DNA from: a virus
Strand: one strand, 5' to 3'
DNA length: 20,160 nucleotides
Virus record (IMG/VR): IMGVR_UViG_3300027714_000177
Span: 1 to 20,160 of that record
Part shown: one piece after another, positions 8,610 to 17,695 of the stretch
Layout of the letters: each line of letters begins with the position of its first letter
Position numbering within the stretch: position 1 is the first letter of the stretch
Notes under the pieces: model-generated
Seen by the model: only the letters and a program-made list of their open reading frames with translations
Databases searched by the model: none
What the model was told of the DNA's origin: nothing
Position numbers and translations under genes: made by a program

Positions 8610-8963
8610 ATGGCTAATACATTTAAGGTAATAACAAGAAGTGCGGCACCCGCCAGTTCAGGAACACCTGAGACGCTGTATACGGTGCAAACTGGTAGCA
8701 CGGTAATTGTTCTTGGACTGACCTTGGCTAACATCCACACTGCGCAGGTTACTGCCAGCGTTACGCTGGTCAGTACCACAACGCAGACCAGTCAGACGCA
8801 AAACACCACGGCCTTTATTGTAAAAGACGCTCCGATACCCATTGGGTCAACGCTCAGTGTTCTTGACGGCAAGATTAACCTGAACGTAGGTGACATTATT
8901 AAGATTGACTGTTCTGTTGCGGACAAGGTTTCTGTTACGATGAGCTACATGGAGATCACCTAA
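8610..8963 (+). CDS. Small virion protein, relative of the protein at 17862
   Basis: This gene encodes 117 residues of beta-sandwich character: ETLYTVQTGSTVIVLGLTLA, a Thr/Gln-rich loop, IVKDAPIPIGSTLSVLDGKI, NVGDIIKIDCSVADKVSVT and an end SYMEIT. This layout (an LYT strand, a domain ending in GD-IK and a final S-x-x-E-I-S/T) is shared with the 106-residue protein at 17862. Such proteins are common among marine phage tail or fibre genes; I believe they are structural. The neighbours on both sides are fibre genes, so it may help attach or cap a fibre. No experimental role is known to me. Confidence 0.75.
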   Translation: MANTFKVITRSAAPASSGTPETLYTVQTGSTVIVLGLTLANIHTAQVTASVTLVSTTTQTSQTQNTTAFIVKDAPIPIGSTLSVLDGKINLNVGDIIKIDCSVADKVSVTMSYMEIT

Positions 8964-9739
8964 TGGCTGGCTACATTGGTAAAAAGGCTGCGTTAACGGT
9001 TGGGATTGCCGCGACTGTTGACGAGCTAAATTACAACGACACGGGGTCCGCTGTTGGCATTGTTGTGGCGAGTAAGACCGTAACTGTGGATGCCAATAAG
9101 GATGTTGCTAGTTTCCGTAATATAACTTTAACAGGAGAGTTGGACGCTGCAACACTGGATATATCTGGGGCAGGCGATGTTGCCGGAGCTTTAACAAACA
9201 ACTCTGTTGCAGTAAAAGTTGCTGGCAAAGAAACTATTTGGATAGCCGCTAGTGCTATGCAGCCCACTACAACTAACGGCTGTTCTTCATTGACCACAGT
9301 TGAAACAACCTCTGGTCGGCCAGATATGGTTGTCTTAGATTTTGATAAAGACAGCGATGAGTTTGCACAATTTACGGTGGCTTTTCCTAAATCTTGGAAT
9401 GAGGGAACAGTAACTTATCAGTTCTTTTGGTCAGGTATCGCGGCTACTACAGGGGTTAGTCTGACTTTGCAGGGCGTTGCTACAGGAGATAACGACACCA
9501 TAGACGTTGCTTATGGAACGTCTGTTTTGGTTAATGATGACGCACAAGGCGCGGTTGAAGAAATGTTGGTTTCTGCTGAAAGTGGGGCGATAACTATTGC
9601 AGGTTCCCCCGCAGTAGATCAGGTGTGTTATTTTAGGATAGGCCGCGATGTTTCTGACAGCGGTGATGATATGGCAGGAGATTGTAGGCTGCATGGCATA
9701 AAGTTGTTCTTTACCACTGACGCAAAGAATGATTCATAA
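8963..9739 (+). CDS. Fibre protein, copy 1 of the shared C-terminal domain
   Basis: This gene encodes 258 residues, starting at TAATG. The N-terminus MAGYIGKKAAL is an anchor type, followed by one copy of a repeat with DELNYNDTG, VVASKTVTVDANKDVAS and TLTGELDAATLDISG. That repeat also occurs in the fibre at 13319. From residue about 83 to the end lies a domain found three times in this window: it starts KVAGKETIW, carries PKSWNEGT in the middle and ends in GIKLFFTTDAKNDS. The domain is probably a trimeric receptor-binding or tip-carrying domain. Its stop overlaps the glycine-rich gene at 9739, so the two products are likely made together and may bind each other. Confidence 0.83.
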   Translation: MAGYIGKKAALTVGIAATVDELNYNDTGSAVGIVVASKTVTVDANKDVASFRNITLTGELDAATLDISGAGDVAGALTNNSVAVKVAGKETIWIAASAMQPTTTNGCSSLTTVETTSGRPDMVVLDFDKDSDEFAQFTVAFPKSWNEGTVTYQFFWSGIAATTGVSLTLQGVATGDNDTIDVAYGTSVLVNDDAQGAVEEMLVSAESGAITIAGSPAVDQVCYFRIGRDVSDSGDDMAGDCRLHGIKLFFTTDAKNDS

Positions 9740-10494
9740 TGACGGGTTTCGGGTATAATATAAACACGTTGGGGGCTTATCCAAACAGGGGTCCAAAATT
9801 TTACACGGCTACTGGTGGAACTGTCACAACAGACGGAAACTATAAAGTTCACAGTTTTACCAGCAGCGGGACTTTTTCAGTTTCAGAGGTGCCTGCTGAC
9901 CCATCTAGTGCAGAACTTGATTATTTAATCCTTGCGGGTGGGGCTTCTGGTGGTGCAAACTCAGGCTCTGGTGGTGGTGCTGGTGGGCGATTATATCTTG
10001 AAAACTATACAGGTATAACAAGCACAGGTAATATTACAGTGACCGTTGGTGCGGGTGGTGCTGGAATGTCATGGGGAGTGCCTTATGGTAGAGGGAACAA
10101 CGGAGCAAATAGTGTTTTTAATTCCATCACTGCAACAGGCGGCGGTGCAGGTTCTGGGAATTACGGTTCTGGCCCATATAGTTATCAAGGCGGGAATGAT
10201 GGCGGCTCTGGCGGTGGCGGCGGTGGTGAAGGAATTGATGGACAAGGCCATGATGGTGGGACAGGTACAAACGGCCAAGGTGGTGGTGGTGCTGGTGGCG
10301 CAGCATCTGGCAGCAATGGCGGTGCGGGTGTTGCGGATAGCATAACAGGCAGTAGTGTGACACGGGCTGAAGGCGGGTCTTCAAATGATTCTGCTGGTGG
10401 GGCAAATACAGGTACTGGCGGTGGACGTAAAGATGAATCTAACACAAATGGTGGTGGCTCAGGCATCGTTATCATACGATATAAGTTTCAGTAG
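9739..10494 (+). CDS. Glycine-rich putative fibre-tip adhesin 1
   Basis: This gene encodes 251 residues, starting at a TAATG overlap with the fibre gene. Residues 1-70 are a beta-rich head starting MTGFGYNINTLGAY. Residues about 72-235 are Gly-rich with many GGG, GGAGG and GSGG runs broken by short loops, and the end is GGGSGIVIIRYKFQ. Gly-rich bodies of this kind occur in phage adhesins such as T-even gp38, where polyglycine helices present variable loops. I infer a similar receptor-binding tip here. The N-terminal pattern M-T-x-F-G-Y resembles the start of the protein at 14665. Antisense frames here are artefacts of GGN codons. Confidence 0.8.
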   Translation: MTGFGYNINTLGAYPNRGPKFYTATGGTVTTDGNYKVHSFTSSGTFSVSEVPADPSSAELDYLILAGGASGGANSGSGGGAGGRLYLENYTGITSTGNITVTVGAGGAGMSWGVPYGRGNNGANSVFNSITATGGGAGSGNYGSGPYSYQGGNDGGSGGGGGGEGIDGQGHDGGTGTNGQGGGGAGGAASGSNGGAGVADSITGSSVTRAEGGSSNDSAGGANTGTGGGRKDESNTNGGGSGIVIIRYKFQ

Positions 10495-10500
10495 GTAGAC

Positions 10501-10851
10501 ATGGCACATTATGCAAAAATAGTAGACGGTGTAGTAACCAACGTCATTGTTGCGGAGCAAGACTTTATTGACACTCAGGTAGGCACTTGGGTTCAGACCA
10601 GCTACAATACGCACGGTGGTCAGCATACGCTAGGCAACACGCCTCTGCGTAAAAACTATGCTGGCATTGGTTATACATATGACAGTACCCGTGATGCTTT
10701 TTATACACCAAAACCTTATTCAAGCTGGACACTAAACGAAACAACATGTCAGTGGGAAGCACCTGTTGCCTACCCCGACGATGACAAAAACTACGCTTGG
10801 AACGAAGATACAACAAGTTGGACAGAGGTGACTGATGCCCCGATACCATAA
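10501..10851 (+). CDS. Cyanophage-like tail-associated protein
   Basis: This gene encodes 116 residues. The sequence starts MAHYAKIVDGVVTNVIVAEQ, followed by WVQTSYNTHGG, then LRKNYAGIGYTYDSTRDAFY, the aromatic segment PKPYSSWTLNETTCQWEAP, and NYAWNEDTTSWTEV. This matches a family common in T4-like cyanophages and marine phage contigs, located among tail and fibre genes. The regular Trp/Tyr-containing beta strands suggest a small virion or assembly protein. It overlaps the chaperone-like gene by 17 bases, so the two may be made together. The exact role is unknown. Confidence 0.78.
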   Translation: MAHYAKIVDGVVTNVIVAEQDFIDTQVGTWVQTSYNTHGGQHTLGNTPLRKNYAGIGYTYDSTRDAFYTPKPYSSWTLNETTCQWEAPVAYPDDDKNYAWNEDTTSWTEVTDAPIP

Positions 10852-11116
10852 CATAAACGGCGAAATGGTGCAGTTTACTGCTGATGAAGAAACTGCCCGT
10901 GATGCAGAAGAAGCGGCATGGGCTGCGGGTGCTGACACCCGCGCTGCAACGTCTGCGCGTGAAGAGCGCGATAAAGTGTTGGCAGAAACGGATTGGATGG
11001 GTAATAGTGATGTTACCATGTCCAGCGCGTGGACAACGTATCGACAGTCACTTAGGGACGTACCAACGCAGTCAGGGTTTCCAAACTCGATTACGTGGCC
11101 TACGAAGCCTAGCTAG
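10835..11116 (+). CDS. Putative tail assembly chaperone (Phage_tail_APC-like)
   Basis: This gene encodes 93 residues and starts within the end of the gene before it. The first half is acidic and helical (ADEETARDAEEAAWAAGA). The second half has the family pattern ERDKVLAETDWMGNSDV, AWTTYRQSLRDVP and GFPNSITWPTKP, as in the Pfam family Phage_tail_APC. That family is named as a tail assembly chaperone, usually encoded next to tail fibre genes. Here it probably helps fold or assemble one of the surrounding fibres. I see no slippery heptamer supporting a frameshift with its neighbour. Confidence 0.82.
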   Translation: MPRYHNINGEMVQFTADEETARDAEEAAWAAGADTRAATSAREERDKVLAETDWMGNSDVTMSSAWTTYRQSLRDVPTQSGFPNSITWPTKPS

Positions 11117-11126
11117 AGGATAAGTT

Positions 11127-11855
11127 ATGACTAGAGCCAGAGATATAGCTAATGTAACTGTTACCCCCACGTTTCCTGACGGCAGCATAAACATTGCCGA
11201 TCTAAACATAGACGGTGGCACAGACATTGGTGCAGCCTTAGTAGACGCAGACTTGATGATTGTAGATGACGGTGCAGGGGGCACTAATCGTAAAGCTACG
11301 ATGACTAGGTTATCCACTTATATAGCTACTAAGATTACTGGTGGTAGTAAGGTTTTTATTGCTTCTACTGGTGTGATTAGTAATGCAGCTACTATTAGTT
11401 TTACGCAATTTGATGATAGTAAATTTGATCATTATGAGTTTTGGTTTCAACACGTTAAACCTGCTACTGATAATCAAGCAATTAGAGGCCACGCATCTAT
11501 AGATGGTGGTTCTAATTATGATGATACAAATGGTAATTATCACTTTAATGGGACTGCTGATACTACAGGTTTTTTAATCCATCGTTATGGGAGTGGTAAT
11601 GCCTCTGGTGAGTATGGTTTTTCTGGTGCCCTGTATCTTTTAGCACCGCACAATCAATCATTTACTTATGCATATGGAAAGGGTGTTAATATGTTAGCTA
11701 ATAGTGATGTTAAAGGTGCTGCTGATGGCAGTGTAAGTCAAGTTTCAACCGCACACCTTTCGGCTAATGATGTAGATGCAATACAGTTTAAATTTCCAAG
11801 TGGAAACATAGCTTCAGGTGAAATAGTTATGTACGGCATAGCAAATGGAACATAA
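11127..11855 (+). CDS. Mosaic fibre protein with AT-rich distal part
   Basis: This gene encodes 242 residues. Residues 1 to about 65 hold an N-terminal module common in marine fibres: TRARDIANV, then LNIDGGTDIGAALVDADLMI and VDDGAGGTNRKATMTRLSTY. The remaining part is a beta-rich domain with FDHYEFWFQHVKPATDNQAI, GHASIDGGSNYDD and a C-terminus IASGEIVMYGIANGT, a distal domain seen in other phage fibres. Base content falls from about 50 % GC in the N-terminal part to about 28-43 % per line between 11341 and 11760, then recovers. This suggests the distal part was acquired by recombination. It probably binds a receptor. Confidence 0.8.
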   Translation: MTRARDIANVTVTPTFPDGSINIADLNIDGGTDIGAALVDADLMIVDDGAGGTNRKATMTRLSTYIATKITGGSKVFIASTGVISNAATISFTQFDDSKFDHYEFWFQHVKPATDNQAIRGHASIDGGSNYDDTNGNYHFNGTADTTGFLIHRYGSGNASGEYGFSGALYLLAPHNQSFTYAYGKGVNMLANSDVKGAADGSVSQVSTAHLSANDVDAIQFKFPSGNIASGEIVMYGIANGT

Positions 11856-11864
11856 GGAAACAAT

Positions 11865-12884
11865 ATGTCTGGATACATTGGTATACTACCCGTTCCGCAG
11901 GCAACAGAGACACGAAACTCGTTTACTGCTACATCGAACCAGACTTCGTTTACTACAGACGGGTACACCCCCAACTTTGTTTCTGTTTATCTAAACGGGG
12001 TTTTGCTGTCCGCCGCTGACTTCACCGCGACCAACGGCACTGATGTTGTGTTGGCCTCTGGCGCTGCGGCTGATGATGTTGTTGAGGTTATTGCTTTCAG
12101 CACTTTCACTGTTTCATCACAGACATTTACGGGTGATGTAACAGCAAGTGGCGGGACGTTTCTGCCTACAGGCGATACTTCCGCAGGCGATGATGCTGCA
12201 ATGGGTTACACTGCCGCAGAAGGTCTTATCCTTACGGGGCAAGGTAGCACCAACGATGTAACCATTAAAAATGACGCAGATGCAGACGTTCTTGAAATAC
12301 CTACAGGCACTACAAATGTAGCTGTCGTAGGTAGCATAACATCTGGTGGTGCTTCGGTCAAAGTTGCTGGCAAGGAAAGCATTTATGTTCCCGCAGCGGA
12401 TATGTATCCAAGCACAACCAACCCTTGTAGCAGCCTGACCCAAGTAGAAACAACAGCATTGCGTCCTGATTTAAAAGTGTTGGACTTTGCAGCGGCGGCG
12501 GATGACTTCGCTCAATTTACTATAGCGTTTCCCAAGTCTTGGAACGAAGGGACTATAACCTTTCAACCTTTTTGGACCGTTACAGGTACAAATACTGGCA
12601 CTGTGGTTTGGCAGCTTGGTGGTATTGCCGTTTCTTCTGATGATACAATTAACACCGCCTTTGGAACACTGGTTGCTACTACGGCCTTGGCGCACTCTGG
12701 CACTTCAAATGACCTCATGGTTAGCGCAGAAAGCGGTGCTGTTACTATAGCTGGCAGTCCAGCAGCCAATGATATGTGTTTCTTCCAAATCAACAACGAT
12801 GCAAGTGCTAGCGGTCAAACAGGAGTGGCTCGTTTACTGGGCATAAAACTGTTCTTCACTACAGACGCGGCGAATGACGCATGA
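11865..12884 (+). CDS. Fibre protein, copy 2 of the shared C-terminal domain
   Basis: This gene encodes 339 residues. The N-terminus SGYIGILPVPQATETRNSFT is followed by a beta domain with TDGYTPNFVSVYLNGVLLSA and VVLASGAAADDVVEVIAF, a known fibre-anchor module. Residues about 105-150 repeat the module of the 7393 fibre (EGLILTGQGSTNDVTIKNDA). The C-terminal domain begins near residue 164 (KVAGKESIY), contains PKSWNEGT and ends in GIKLFFTTDAANDA. It is the second copy of the domain also found at 8963 and 13319. Unlike those, it is not followed by an intact glycine-rich gene but by a short remnant. Its stop overlaps an ATG (ATGA). Confidence 0.83.
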   Translation: MSGYIGILPVPQATETRNSFTATSNQTSFTTDGYTPNFVSVYLNGVLLSAADFTATNGTDVVLASGAAADDVVEVIAFSTFTVSSQTFTGDVTASGGTFLPTGDTSAGDDAAMGYTAAEGLILTGQGSTNDVTIKNDADADVLEIPTGTTNVAVVGSITSGGASVKVAGKESIYVPAADMYPSTTNPCSSLTQVETTALRPDLKVLDFAAAADDFAQFTIAFPKSWNEGTITFQPFWTVTGTNTGTVVWQLGGIAVSSDDTINTAFGTLVATTALAHSGTSNDLMVSAESGAVTIAGSPAANDMCFFQINNDASASGQTGVARLLGIKLFFTTDAANDA

Positions 12885-12924
12885 CGGCTCTGGCGTAGTA
12901 ATATTTAAATATCAGTATCAATAG
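12881..12924 (+). pseudogene. Remnant of a deleted glycine-rich adhesin gene
   Basis: Directly at the end of the fibre gene, an ATGACGG matches the first 7 bases of the glycine-rich gene at 9739, but that frame stops after five codons. In another frame, 12883-12924 reads DGSGVVIFKYQYQ then a stop. This matches the end of the glycine-rich protein at 9739 (GGSGIVIIRYKFQ) at 7 of 13 residues, with conservative changes in nearly all others. Start and end lie in different frames, as expected of a deletion that removed the body. A chance match is possible because the stretch is short, but its position is exactly where an intact partner would lie. Confidence 0.6.
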
Positions 12925-12933
12925 GAGTAAACA

Positions 12934-13260
12934 ATGTTAGGTTTTTCCCCACTAGCTGACAACTCCATTGCTGGTTTTGGCAATATCCCCGCTGACGTTG
13001 CGGTTACGGGTGTTGCTGGTACGGGTGCTGTTGGCACTGTTAGTGTAGAAGCCGACATTCAAGTAACGGGTGTTGCTGGCACCAGCGCTGTTGGTTCGGT
13101 AACTTTAATACAAAAACACAACATATCGGTTACGGGTGTTGCTGGCACCAGCGCTGTTGGTTCGGTTCTTGTTTGGGGTCAAATCATCCCGATTCAATCT
13201 TCAAACTTTTCTGCTATTACGCCATCTCAGTCTCCAAACTGGGAGGAGATTGCTGCGTAG
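12934..13260 (+). CDS. Small repeat-containing structural protein
   Basis: This gene encodes 108 residues with a good AGGAG site 6 bases ahead of the ATG. The N-terminus MLGFSPLADNSIAGF resembles the starts of small cyanophage and marine phage structural proteins. Three copies of a 13-residue unit follow at residues 24-36, 44-56 and 66-78, of which the last two are identical (VTGVAGTSAVGSV). The C-terminus ends in PSQSPNWEEIAA. Repeat proteins of this type occur among marine phage tail genes, from memory, with copy number varying between relatives. A beta-helical or fibre-surface role is plausible. No function is established. Confidence 0.72.
   Translation: MLGFSPLADNSIAGFGNIPADVAVTGVAGTGAVGTVSVEADIQVTGVAGTSAVGSVTLIQKHNISVTGVAGTSAVGSVLVWGQIIPIQSSNFSAITPSQSPNWEEIAA
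13003..13167 (+). repeat. Tandem 39-base coding repeat, three copies
   Basis: Copies start at 13003, 13063 and 13129 (60- and 66-base spacing, so always in frame). Copies two and three differ at a single base over 39 bases (GTAACGGG against GTTACGGG). Copy one differs at a few positions (GTACGGGTGCT in place of GCACCAGCGCT). The near-identity of two copies points to recent duplication or gene conversion. Confidence 0.8.
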
Positions 13261-13289
13261 TTGCTTAGAAGCAGAAGTATGGGTATAGT
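13261..13289 (+). promoter_or_regulatory. Possible sigma70-type promoter before the third fibre gene
   Basis: The 58-base gap before 13319 contains TTGCTT (13261-13266) and TATAGT (13284-13289) with a 17-base spacer. The -10 box matches consensus at 5 of 6 positions and the -35 box at 3 of 6. It is one of few gaps in the fibre module large enough for a promoter. The -35 box begins right after the preceding stop codon. A chance match cannot be excluded. Confidence 0.3.
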
Positions 13290-13318
13290 CCAATTAAATT
13301 TATAGCTGAGGTCACATC

Positions 13319-14665
13319 ATGGCTACATACACTGCAGCAAACGCGCTCAAGAAAATATCAACGGGTGATGAGTCTGGCACATGGGGCGACAGCACCAATA
13401 ACAACTTTGATATTATAGACCGTGCTTCGAACGGATTTGTTTCAATTGCTCTGTCTGCTACTTCTTTTACGTTGGCATTATCGACTACGGCAGTTTTGTC
13501 TAATGGTCACTATAAGGCAATAAAATTTACAGGGTCTCCGGGCGGCACATGCACCGTTACGTTGCAGCAAAACGACAAGGCCAGAATCTACATGATTCTG
13601 AACAGTACCAATCAATCTCTGTCTATTACGCAAGGGTCGGGGGCCAACGTCACTATTCTTGCGGACAACTCTGCAATTATTTTAGCTGACGGCGCTGGTT
13701 CGGGAGCCGCCGTTACTGATTTTAGTTCTCTTATTCGCATCTCGGAGTTGGACGGTGTTACTGCGGGAACAGTTACTGCCAGCAAAGCGGTTATTGTTGA
13801 CAGCAGCAAGGACATTACAGGTTTTAGAAATGTTACGCTGACGGGAGAGTTGGACGCGGCTACTTTAGACATTAGCGGGAACGCTGATATTGATGGCACA
13901 TTGGAGACAGATGCTTTTTCTATATCAGGCACTGTAGTATCTGCGACTGCGGCCGAGTTAAACTACAACGACACAGGTGCGGCAGTTGGAACGGTTGTTG
14001 CCAGCAAGACAGTCACGGCTGATGCTAACAAGGACGTGGCAAGCCTGCGCAACCTAACTCTTACGGGTGAGTTAGACGCGGCAACGTTAGACATATCTGG
14101 CGCGGGTGACGTTGCAGGGGCGCTGACCAACAACTCCGCAGCGGTAAAGGTCGCGGGTGTAGAAACTATTTATGTTCCTGCTGGAGCAATGTCTCCCACT
14201 ACTTCCTTTGGCTGTGCAGGGTTGTCTCAAGTGGAACTGTCAAACGGCCCTGAAATTAAAACGTTAGACTTTGACGCAAGCACTGACGAAAACGCGCAGT
14301 TTACCGTGTGCTTTCCCAAGTCTTGGAACGAAGGAACCATTACGTTTCAAGCGTTTTGGACAGTAACGGGTACAAACACAGGCACTGTGGCTTGGGGATT
14401 GCAGGGCGTAAGTATAGCAGACGATGTTTCTATAAATACCGCATTTGGGACTAACGTAGTTGCTACGGCTAAAGCATTCAGCGGCACATCTAACGACATG
14501 ACTGTTTCTGCGGTAAGTGGCGCGGTAACTGTAGCTAGTGCAGCGGTAGATACACAGACATACTTTCAGATTATGCGGGACGTATCGGCAGACGATCAGT
14601 CAGGGGATGCTAGGCTTTTAGGGATAAAACTGTTTTACACAACAGACGCAAAGAATGATGCCTAA
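13319..14665 (+). CDS. Long fibre protein, copy 3 of the shared C-terminal domain
   Basis: This gene encodes 448 residues. The N-terminal module has ANALKKISTGDESGTWGDST and NNNFDIIDRASNGFVSIAL, a familiar anchor domain of marine phage fibres ending near residue 145. Two copies of a repeat with TLTGELDAATLDISG follow, the second carrying ELNYNDTGAAVG and VASKTVTADANKDVAS as in the 8963 fibre. The C-terminal domain starts near residue 274 (KVAGVETIY), contains PKSWNEGT and ends in GIKLFYTTDAKNDA. The stop overlaps the glycine-rich gene at 14665 (TAATG), mirroring the 8963/9739 pair. It is probably a receptor-binding fibre or the carrier of the glycine-rich tip. Confidence 0.84.
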   Translation: MATYTAANALKKISTGDESGTWGDSTNNNFDIIDRASNGFVSIALSATSFTLALSTTAVLSNGHYKAIKFTGSPGGTCTVTLQQNDKARIYMILNSTNQSLSITQGSGANVTILADNSAIILADGAGSGAAVTDFSSLIRISELDGVTAGTVTASKAVIVDSSKDITGFRNVTLTGELDAATLDISGNADIDGTLETDAFSISGTVVSATAAELNYNDTGAAVGTVVASKTVTADANKDVASLRNLTLTGELDAATLDISGAGDVAGALTNNSAAVKVAGVETIYVPAGAMSPTTSFGCAGLSQVELSNGPEIKTLDFDASTDENAQFTVCFPKSWNEGTITFQAFWTVTGTNTGTVAWGLQGVSIADDVSINTAFGTNVVATAKAFSGTSNDMTVSAVSGAVTVASAAVDTQTYFQIMRDVSADDQSGDARLLGIKLFYTTDAKNDA

Positions 14666-15483
14666 TGACTTCTTTTGGATATGATATACTAGGGTTTGGC
14701 GTAAGTGGCGGTGGGCCTGTCACGCTTACTTCTGAGACTGCTATAAACAGTCAAAGTAACCGACAGGAAGTTACAACTTCTAGTTTTATATTTAGTGGTG
14801 GCACGTTAATTATCCCAGAAGATTTCTGGGTGTGGTCTGATACGCAAGGGACCGCAGGGCTAATAGTAGACACGCCTAACGCTACCATTGAAAATTACGG
14901 CAAAATTATTGGACGCGGTGGTAATGGATATAATAACCCTACGGGGGGTAGTTTAAACGGTAGTGAAGCAATCAGTATTACTGCTACAGGAGTAACCATC
15001 ATAAATTACTCTGGAGCATACATTGCAGGGGGCGGTGGGTGTGGTGGTCAGGCCCAAAATTCTGGTTCGGGTGGTGGAGCTGGTGGCGGTCACGGCGGCA
15101 ACTCTTTAGGCGGTGCTGGCGGTATATTAAATGCCTCTGGAGCCAACGGAACAGGGGCCGACGGTTTTGGTCGAGGCGGGGGTTCTGGCGGCGGCGGTTG
15201 TCAGATTAGCACGTTTGGTCGCAGTGGCGGCGGTGGCGGGGGTCGTATTTTGCCCGGATCTGGCGGTGCTGGGCTGGGATCTGGCGGTGCTGGTGGCTCC
15301 GCAGGTAATGTAGGCGGCAGCGGTAGCGGAAATGCAAACGGCGGCGGTGGCGGCTGGGGAGCAAATGGCGGAGCGGCAGCACAGCCACAGATAGGCGTGG
15401 GTCTTGGTGGCAAGGGCATTAAATCCAACAGCAATAGTTTTACACTGACGAACAACGGTACTATTTACGGCGCACAATCGTGA
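14665..15483 (+). CDS. Glycine-rich putative fibre-tip adhesin 2
   Basis: This gene encodes 272 residues. It starts MTSFGYDILGFGVSGGGPV, similar in its first residues to the adhesin at 9739. Residues about 30-80 form a beta-rich part (FSGGTLIIPEDFWVWSDTQG) and residues about 82-245 are Gly-rich, with INYSGAYIAGGGGCGG and many GGG runs. The C-terminus LTNNGTIYGAQS differs from that of adhesin 1 and resembles the N-x-G-x-I-Y-G ends of other phage glycine-rich fibre proteins. The overlap with the fibre gene suggests the pair functions together, as a tip on a shaft. The receptor is unknown. Two Cys residues in the Gly-rich part could form a disulfide. Confidence 0.8.
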   Translation: MTSFGYDILGFGVSGGGPVTLTSETAINSQSNRQEVTTSSFIFSGGTLIIPEDFWVWSDTQGTAGLIVDTPNATIENYGKIIGRGGNGYNNPTGGSLNGSEAISITATGVTIINYSGAYIAGGGGCGGQAQNSGSGGGAGGGHGGNSLGGAGGILNASGANGTGADGFGRGGGSGGGGCQISTFGRSGGGGGGRILPGSGGAGLGSGGAGGSAGNVGGSGSGNANGGGGGWGANGGAAAQPQIGVGLGGKGIKSNSNSFTLTNNGTIYGAQS

Positions 15484-15490
15484 GGGTGTT

Positions 15491-17695
15491 ATGCCACTAG
15501 CAAAGTTAAAGTTTAAACCCGGAATTAACAAAGAAACCACTCCGTTCTCTGAAGAAAACGGTTGGGTAAATTGTGATAAGATACGGTTTCGTTTTGGGTA
15601 TCCTGAAAAGCTTAACGGCTGGGAAAAGAACTCTAACAAAGCCTTTTTAGGTTTATGTCGTGGGATGCACGAGTTTGTAGCGTTAAATGGTGAGAAGTTT
15701 CTGGGCCTTGGAACCGAGTTAAAGTTTTATATCAAGCAAGGAACGGGCTTCAAAGACGTTACTCCTCTCAGGCAAACAACTTCTGCGGGAGATGTTACTT
15801 TTTCTGCAAGCAACGGTTCCGCTGTAATTACAGTGACGGATACAAATCATGGTTGTGTGGCTAATGACTTTGTTACTTTTTCTGGAGCAGCCACACTGGG
15901 TGGCACCATAACAGCTAATGTTTTGAATCAAGAGTATCAGATTACAGATGTTGTGGATGGAAACACTTACAAGATATCGGCAAGGACCCTCACTACGATT
16001 GAAAGCATTACCGTATCGGGAGGGTTAGATGCTACCGCTGTTGCTGCTAACGGTAGCGACACGGGCAATGGTGGGAGTAGCGTTGTTGGGACATACCAAA
16101 TTGGCACTGCATTAAACGATGCTGTGTTTGGCACGGGTTGGGGTGCAGGAGTTTGGGGCGGAACAACAACAGGGGCGCTTACCACAACATTGAATGAGGG
16201 CGGCACCCTTTCTAACAGTGATACTACTATTACGGTGGCTAGTTCCACGGGCATTGTTGCTACCGATATTATCATGATAGGCACGGAACTTATTCTGGTG
16301 GGTGGTATAAGCTCTAACGACTTGACGGGTTGTACTAGGGGTCACAAGGGCACTACTGCTACAACACATACGGACGGGTCTGCAGTACGGCTTGCTTCGG
16401 GTAACGCTTCTACTGCGGATAACTTTTCAGGGTGGGGTTTGGCCTTAATCTCGGGAACCATTACTTCATCTGCAAACCTGCGCATTTGGTCACAAGACAA
16501 CTTTGGTGAAGACTTGCTGTTGAACGAAAGAAACGGCAGGATTTATTATTGGGACAGAACTAACGGCACAAGTACAAGGGCCAAGTTTCTAACCGATAGT
16601 GCCTTGGGCCTTGGCACACGGACATCGGTTCCTACTATAGCCACACAGGTTCTTCTGTCTGACCGAGACAGGCATGTTATTGCGTTTGGCGCGGACGGTC
16701 TTGGCGCTACATCGGCAGCAACGGATGGCAGTGGGGTTCAAGACCCGTTGCTAATACGGTTTAGCAGCCAAGAAAACCCTGTTGATTGGTATCCTACCTC
16801 CACCAATACGGCGGGTGATTTGCGTATAAGCTCTGGCTCCAAGATTATTCAAGCTGTAGAAACACGGCAACAGATATTGGTGTTTACAGATGTTTCTATC
16901 CACGCAATGCAGTTTCTTGGACCGCCATTTACGTTTGGTATAAACCTAATTTCTGAAAACATTACCATCGCTAGTCCGAAGGCTGCGGTTGCGGTGGACG
17001 ATGCGGTGTTTTGGATGGGTGCGGCAGAGTTCTATGCGTTTACGGGGGCTGTTCAAAGAATACCCTGCACTGTTAGGGACTATGTGTTTGATGACATTAA
17101 CGAGTCTCAGTTTGATAAGATTGTTGCAGGAGCTAACGTGTCCTTTTCGGAGGTGTGGTGGTTTTATCCTTCTGCAGCCTCAAGCGAGAACGACAGGTAT
17201 GTGGTTTACAACTACCTTGAGAAGCTTTGGTTTATCGGAAACCTAGCTAGAACGGCATGGTTGGATCGGGGGATTTCTTCGCTGCCTTTAGCTGCGGGGA
17301 CTACAAACTTCTTGTTTAATCAAGAGGTGGGCGCACAGGATGACGGCTCTGCTATGACCTCGTTTATTGAGTCGGGGGACATGTCTATTACAGAAGGCAA
17401 TCAGTTCTCTTTTATCAGCAGGGTAATACCGGACATTAACTTTAGGGAAACTGTAAACACTTCCTCTATGGATTTCATTATGGAGACTAAGAACTTTCCG
17501 GGCCAAACGGACCAGAACAGTTCCACCAATACAATATCAAAGACATCTAGTACGCCTGTGGATCAGTACACTAACCAATACTTTACACGATTAAGAGGGC
17601 GGAGCTTTACGCTCAAGCTACAATCTACAGATGCAAACGTCCTCTGGAGATTGGGTGTGCCGCGTGTAGATATTAGACCAGATGGGAAACGATAA
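15491..17695 (+). CDS. Tail nozzle / DNA stabilisation protein (P22 gp10-like or T7 gp12-like)
   Basis: This 734-residue protein is the largest in the window. The N-terminus PLAKLKFKPGINKETTPFSE, then ENGWVNCDKIRFRFGYPEKL and LGLCRGMHEFVALNGEKFLG, is typical of the stabilisation/nozzle proteins of podovirus-like marine phages. Residues about 233-302 hold an inserted beta module with TELILVGGI and LTGCTRGHKGTTATTHTDG, a domain that recurs in unrelated phage tail proteins. The C-terminal half contains FSSQENPVDWYPT, ETRQQILVFTDVSIHAMQ and YNYLEKLWFIGNL, with the end RLGVPRVDIRPDG. It would close the tail below the adaptor ring. P22 gp10-like and T7 gp12-like are both possible; a general nozzle role is well supported by size, motifs and order. 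Confidence 0.83.
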   Translation: MPLAKLKFKPGINKETTPFSEENGWVNCDKIRFRFGYPEKLNGWEKNSNKAFLGLCRGMHEFVALNGEKFLGLGTELKFYIKQGTGFKDVTPLRQTTSAGDVTFSASNGSAVITVTDTNHGCVANDFVTFSGAATLGGTITANVLNQEYQITDVVDGNTYKISARTLTTIESITVSGGLDATAVAANGSDTGNGGSSVVGTYQIGTALNDAVFGTGWGAGVWGGTTTGALTTTLNEGGTLSNSDTTITVASSTGIVATDIIMIGTELILVGGISSNDLTGCTRGHKGTTATTHTDGSAVRLASGNASTADNFSGWGLALISGTITSSANLRIWSQDNFGEDLLLNERNGRIYYWDRTNGTSTRAKFLTDSALGLGTRTSVPTIATQVLLSDRDRHVIAFGADGLGATSAATDGSGVQDPLLIRFSSQENPVDWYPTSTNTAGDLRISSGSKIIQAVETRQQILVFTDVSIHAMQFLGPPFTFGINLISENITIASPKAAVAVDDAVFWMGAAEFYAFTGAVQRIPCTVRDYVFDDINESQFDKIVAGANVSFSEVWWFYPSAASSENDRYVVYNYLEKLWFIGNLARTAWLDRGISSLPLAAGTTNFLFNQEVGAQDDGSAMTSFIESGDMSITEGNQFSFISRVIPDINFRETVNTSSMDFIMETKNFPGQTDQNSSTNTISKTSSTPVDQYTNQYFTRLRGRSFTLKLQSTDANVLWRLGVPRVDIRPDGKR

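Follow-up and report, generated by a model that had tools for sequence, protein, structure and literature searches.

The analysed stretch of DNA (hereafter the window) is a 20,160-base metagenomic IMG/VR virus record of a marine phage. Its capsid protein is 71% identical to that of Pelagibacter phage HTVC023P, and a 734-aa protein encoded at 15491 shares ~31–39% identity with proteins of HTVC023P, phage DSL-LC04, Roseobacter phage CRP-901 and others; these two matches make a podovirus-like marine phage the probable source. Three fibre genes in the window (starting at 8963, 11865 and 13319; slots 1 to 3) share a C-terminal domain of ~175 residues, as seen in a domain alignment. The glycine-rich gene that follows a fibre gene is referred to here as a tip. 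The features of the locus are:

8963..9739, + strand: slot-1 fibre (ORF; same C-terminal domain as the other copies)
9739..10494, + strand: slot-1 tip with a Gly_rich_2 domain (PF21722, E=1.8e-16) and the anchor MTGFGYNINTLGAYPNR
10501..10851, + strand: small phrog_7759 gene (phrog_7759, E=2.4e-31)
11865..12884, + strand: slot-2 fibre, 339 aa (ORF), intact and now without a tip
12874..12924, + strand: 16-codon ORF MTHDGSGVVIFKYQYQ made by the join, in the frame of the putative remnant; its ATG lies within the conserved fibre end
12881..12887, + strand: putative 5' remnant of a tip gene, ATGACGG (start codon and next four bases), overlapping the fibre stop
12888..12924, + strand: putative 3' remnant, the last codons of a tip gene to its own TAG (end of GSGVVIFKYQYQ), in a different frame from the start codon
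12934..13260, + strand: gene directly 3' of the putative scar, which borders slot 2 on the right in relatives
13319..14665, + strand: slot-3 fibre (ORF; same C-terminal domain as the other copies)
14665..15483, + strand: slot-3 tip of another body type, ending in NGTIYG, with the anchor MTSFGYDILGFG

The slot-2 fibre terminates at TGA 12882–12884, and only 49 bases then remain before the 12934 gene. A sequence-only reading had proposed that the fibres at 8963 and 13319 each overlap a glycine-rich gene at TAATG, and that the fibre at 11865 is followed instead by the first seven bases of the 9739 gene and, in another frame, by a match to its last 13 codons. The ORFs bear out both overlaps (tips 9739 and 14665), and the bases at 12881–12887 (ATGACGG) match the 9739 gene start exactly, as they do the tip starts of three related contigs (L121, L120 and L090). 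The surviving start codon now encodes just MTALA-stop. The +1 frame from 12883 reads DGSGVVIFKYQYQ-stop (12883–12924), which is the usual end of a Gly_rich_2 tip and is identical at 7/13 residues to GGSGIVIIRYKFQ, the end of the 9739 tip. When a profile of 10 residues of tip C-termini was run over the 26,274 stop-free windows of the two strands, the 9739 tip ranked first (40.2 bits), the frame at 12883 second (26.0 bits) and the next 4.8 bits; both leading scores are somewhat inflated because the profile holds the identical L121 end and the 9739 end, but the gap is still large. Judged by this ranking, the resemblance of the remnant to a tip end is not due to chance.

A degenerate pattern encoding GSGVVIFKYQYQ-TAG, scanned against IMG/VR, returned three contigs, L001, L120 and L121. 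L001 is a separate contig with the same junction; it is 99.88% identical to window positions 10173–14361, with five differing positions, and the two could represent one virus population. L120 and L121 carry intact glycine-rich tip genes with this end. L121 (contig 3300025132_000475, also numbered L091 and L125) has its tip in the same slot, with the same fibre C-terminus, ATGACGG start, 3' end and downstream gene: the tip (867 bases including the stop) starts with ATGACGGGGTTTGG on the same fibre end GACGCGGCGAATGACGC and ends with GGCGGCTCTGGCGTAGTAATATTCAAATACCAGTATCAATAG, followed by the same GGAGTAAACAATGTTAGG of the 12934 gene. Both sides of the window junction, which reads CATGACGG and then CTCTGG across the join, match this gene (start ATGACGGGG, end AATGGCGGCTCTGGCGTAG). 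Compared with L121, the window lacks 823 bases, a number not divisible by 3, so that the frame is broken. Positions 12888–12933 are identical to the L121 tip end and spacer at 44/46 bases, the two differences being silent in the frame of the lost tip, and 12888–12924 are identical to L120 at 36/37 bases, so close a match that the remnant looks fresh. The L121 homologue of the lost gene covers the whole PF21722 model (E=1.4e-26, residues 42–286 of 288). The locus thus has both ends of a tip gene with the middle absent and the frame destroyed, and relatives have the gene intact. On this comparison, 12881–12924 is very probably the scar of a deleted slot-2 tip gene. The proposal that an ancestral third fibre-tip pair lost its tip by deletion, with the two ends fused out of frame, is upheld by the intact L121 and the fused window; the glycine-rich gene with a VVIFKYQYQ-like end that was expected behind a relative of the 11865 fibre is present in L121 in the same slot, and L120 has the same end.

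The polarity of this change follows from the other relatives. The last 170 aa of the slot-2 fibre are 98% identical to L004, 91% to L125 and 90% to L090, and all three have the same fibre with an intact tip in slot 2 (279 residues in L004 and 278 in L090, ending in GGSGVVIIRYQYQ and GGSGVVIVRYKYQ, respectively), indicating that the slot-2 tip is ancestral and was lost in the window. The reverse order, in which the short spacer is ancestral and relatives gained tips by insertion, has as its sole support the absence of a tip in this record. Since the two ends of a tip gene stand in the spacer in different frames, L121 has an intact orthologous tip with the same two ends in slot 2 and nearly every fibre of the family carries a tip, this order is vanishingly improbable. 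In L125/L121 and L090, the slot-2 tip is followed by the 12934 gene; in L004, one further gene separates the two. The 12934 gene encodes a 108-aa protein with three VTGVAGT.AVG repeats; L133 and L135 have several matching stretches further upstream, which suggests longer arrays in these loci.

The remnant might alternatively still be in use, either as the 16-residue peptide from 12874 or as a fibre tail reached by a +1 frameshift past the weak TGAC stop. An open frame does exist, and the silence of both differences from L121 would fit such use, yet little change is expected anyway if the deletion is recent, and no relative keeps such a frame without a tip. The scar peptide makes up the C-terminal edge of the Gly_rich_2 domain, whose profile alignment runs to its final column at residue 286, and falls within the last strand, residues 280–286, of the predicted L121 tip; a single predicted strand taken out of a larger fold is not likely to fold by itself. 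Continued use is thus extremely unlikely, and the 16-codon ORF MTHDGSGVVIFKYQYQ is probably meaningless.

The join lies within an imperfect 7-base repeat, ATGACGG on the left and ATGGCGG on the right, with CGG in common, and 12885–12887 (CGG) can be assigned to either side. The most plausible history is a within-genome deletion. The ancestor would have carried fibre 2 followed by an ATGA-overlapping tip gene of ~285 codons ending in GGSGVVIFKYQYQ-TAG; recombination between the short imperfect repeats at the start codon (ATGACGG) and near the end (ATGGCGG) would have removed ~0.8 kb and fused the last 13 codons, out of frame, to the first seven bases. An assembler might have skipped such a gene, given the repetitive nature of glycine-rich genes and the metagenomic source of the record; however, the ends share three exact consecutive bases (6/7 overall), far fewer than an assembler word, and the same join occurs in L001, a contig that differs at five positions. 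An assembly artefact is therefore very unlikely.

The join may instead have arisen by illegitimate recombination between two phage genomes, one supplying the fibre and the other the tip end. Such a crossover is possible because the fibre left of the join is nearest to L004 (98%) and the remnant right of it is nearest to L121. In the C-terminal half of fibre 2, positions 12585–12824 are identical to L004 at 239/240 bases, but blocks of 60 bases there share only 67–83% identity with L125; across the remnant and the start of the following gene, by contrast, L125 agrees at 118/120. Mosaicism extends over the whole module. Fibre mosaicism is nevertheless common at this locus and can be older than the join, and the tips of L121 and L090 begin with the ATGACGG of the junction, in contrast to ATGACTG in L004. 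We regard the two-genome origin as a minority possibility that deserves mention beside within-genome deletion; the tip is lost under either route. A gapped pattern scan (fibre end, at most 30 bases, GSG[IV][VI]I) revealed no scars besides those of the window and L001: of its nine matches, L001 is the scar, seven lie inside long glycine-rich ORFs and the one in L193 is a chance DNA match. A paper search brought up no report of fibre gene loss by microhomology, and a paper on HTVC023P-type pelagiphage genomes makes no mention of tail fibres.

All fetched loci were surveyed for distinct fibre ends with at least 120 bases behind them, yielding 214 ends, a non-random sample, as loci had been retrieved through similarity to the window's fibres or through a motif at the fibre end. 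A tip follows 200 of the 214, comprising 199 found by automatic classification, which begin within ~20 bases of the fibre stop, and one recognised by eye (L221), whose variant anchor FGHQILGFG was missed by the automatic class. Ten slot-3 fibres without a tip (L014, L025, L028, L030, L103, L112, L115, L145, L153 and L154) are joined directly to the homologue of the 15491 gene. The automatic classification placed five ends elsewhere, namely those of the window (counted once with L001), L221 (the tip recognised by eye), L230, L240 and L324, and the window/L001 junction is the only scar among the 214. In L324 (EBPR siphovirus 2), a non-glycine-rich gene comes after the fibre, and the fibre ends at L230:3221 and L240:254 are followed by unrelated genes (a 500-aa ORF and a 129-aa ORF) with no tip.

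In the ten tipless slot-3 loci, the fibre stop overlaps the start codon of the 15491 homologue at a junction GATGCC-T(A/G)ATG-CC, and the tip is gone from its own start codon to that of the next gene. A DNA tree built from 31 slot-3 ends, with the remaining two fibres of the window as outgroup, requires two changes for the tipless state (bootstrap range 2–2): nine tipless members form one clade (100/100), and L115 is tipless and sister to the tipped slot 3 of the window (100/99). Slot-3 tips were thus probably lost twice, independently and by clean removal, a polarity that is likely rather than proven given the long outgroup branches and the recombining fibres. Together with the slot-2 scar, this brings the tip losses to three. 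An earlier protein tree of all fibre C-terminal domains was discarded, as its crude classifier mislabelled the window's slot-3 tip and omitted fibre 2. Of the suggestion that tips are gained and lost as units, the part concerning loss is shown by the scar and probably by the two slot-3 events, and no case of de novo gain emerged; comparison does show that tip bodies have been replaced while the anchors in front of them were conserved.

Tips start with a short anchor of 12–17 residues that is nearly constant within a slot. In the window and its nearest relatives, the anchors are slot-specific (MTGFGYNINTLGAYPNR in slot 1, MTGFGYNVSGFGSFPSR in slot 2 and MTSFGYDILGFG in slot 3), those of the window lying at 9739–9789 and 14665–14710, and bodies are exchanged just behind them. 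DNA divergence begins ~40–60 bases into the tip gene, and many pairs of bodies are 33–46% identical behind fibres that are 94–99% alike; the bodies are just 36% identical behind 95–98% fibres when the window is compared with L004 in slot 1 and with L125 in slot 3. Bodies are of the Gly_rich_2 type, of a type ending in NGT..G, or long (460–690 residues). Very long tips of low glycine content (670–690 aa) with the same kind of anchor occur in L013, L014, L025, L028 and L034. Gly_rich_2 (PF21722) matches 25/28 aligned tips, and the slot-3 tip of the window is without a match. The fibre C-terminus ends in TTDA.ND, which is invariant in the family alignment.

The L121 tip was predicted with a pLDDT of 90 and its anchor (residues 1–20) with ~50, as would be expected of a part that folds on its partner. 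The model of the fibre C-terminal domain is of moderate quality (pLDDT 77.8). Its many beta-sandwich matches were weak (carbohydrate-binding modules, meprin, ephrin receptors; TM-scores mostly 0.3–0.5 by query length) and yielded no usable fold assignment. Sequence searches of solved structures with the fibre and tips returned chance matches only. Because anchors stay nearly constant while bodies differ, and because the fibre end TTDA.ND is invariant, it appears reasonably likely that the tip binds, through its short N-terminal anchor, to the conserved C-terminal domain of its fibre, and that once docked it would present its variable glycine-rich body to the receptor.

The best fold match of the predicted tip is to tail-tip chains Qa/Qb of mycobacteriophage Bxb1 (PDB 9d93, E=8.5e-7), although this is the tail tip of a phage with an actinobacterial host and TM-scores to the predicted tip are only 0.40–0.51. 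The predicted tip also shows a tentative fold resemblance to gp24, the fibre of cyanophage Pam3 (PDB 7ypx and 7yfw; a significant Foldseek E=2.1e-5 but a TM of ~0.45–0.51), whose distal part comprises a TNF-like and a glycine-rich domain (PMC9608196). The glycine-rich domain of Pam3 is within the fibre chain, whereas here it is a separate gene. Pam3 gp25 is a partner or chaperone of gp24 (PMC9608196), and here a small gene usually follows the tip. A phrog_7759 gene is found after 49/53 tips ending in GSG..IIRY as against 5/33 ending in NGT..G, and after 51/80 tips with other ends, a mixed group. The phrog_7759 protein has no sequence match to a solved chaperone; since it tracks GSG..IIRY tips, as gp25 serves the Pam3 fibre, it is possibly a chaperone of tips of this type. 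An in-frame phrog_7759 scar lies behind the slot-2 tip at L090:4957–5001 (MSHFAKIEDGVEVT-stop), where the start MSHFAKIEDGV is fused to the end EVT-stop; L004 keeps the whole gene.

Phages T2, PP01 and S16 likewise use two genes: the long tail fibre gp37 is followed by gp38, a glycine-rich tip encoded separately, which attaches by its N-terminal part and has a variable receptor-binding body. Gene order and anchors suggest that the tips described here are also separate parts attached to the fibre end, as gp38 is, with no sequence match to gp38 in Pfam and PDB searches of the fibres and tips. A T2-type phage lacking gene 38 formed no plaques with PP01 gp38, and did so once the 113 N-terminal residues of PP01 gp38 were swapped for those of T2 (PMC12892980), which is the same logic as that of slot-specific anchors. 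Unlike in gp38, the anchor comprises ~12–17 residues rather than 113, and in contrast to T2, PP01 and S16, there are three tandem fibre/tip slots in a podovirus-like phage.

The tipless fibre 2 remains open and departs once from 31 highly conserved columns, in the same way as the tipped L004; relaxed constraint was considered, and these columns give no sign of decay. Fibre 2 would presumably still be made without a receptor-binding tip of its own, and attachment would rest on the slot-1 and slot-3 tips, or on the tip of another slot if anchors cross-fit. As the T2-type phage without gp38 needs a tip N-terminus that fits its fibre, fibre 2 is probably silent in attachment unless the tip of another slot fits. 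More tentatively, and with less than even confidence, parallel slots with slot-specific plug-in tips may let any one tip be lost or have its body swapped without stopping infection, the tipless fibre then staying bare in the virion or borrowing a tip from another slot.

Under laboratory selection, ~0.6 kb deletions arose in gp37 of PP01 in all evolved populations (PMC6027323). These likewise hit a host-attachment gene, but the fibre shrank and was still functional, whereas here a whole tip gene was destroyed. The event is real and understandable within a known kind of mosaic host-recognition module. It provides a wild phage that lacks one of three predicted receptor-binding tips, with the intact counterpart, the breakpoints and the relatives all visible. 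The module is built of conserved fibre ends, slot-specific anchors and exchangeable bodies, and because this build is visible, the rules of host-recognition exchange in these marine phages become testable from sequence alone.
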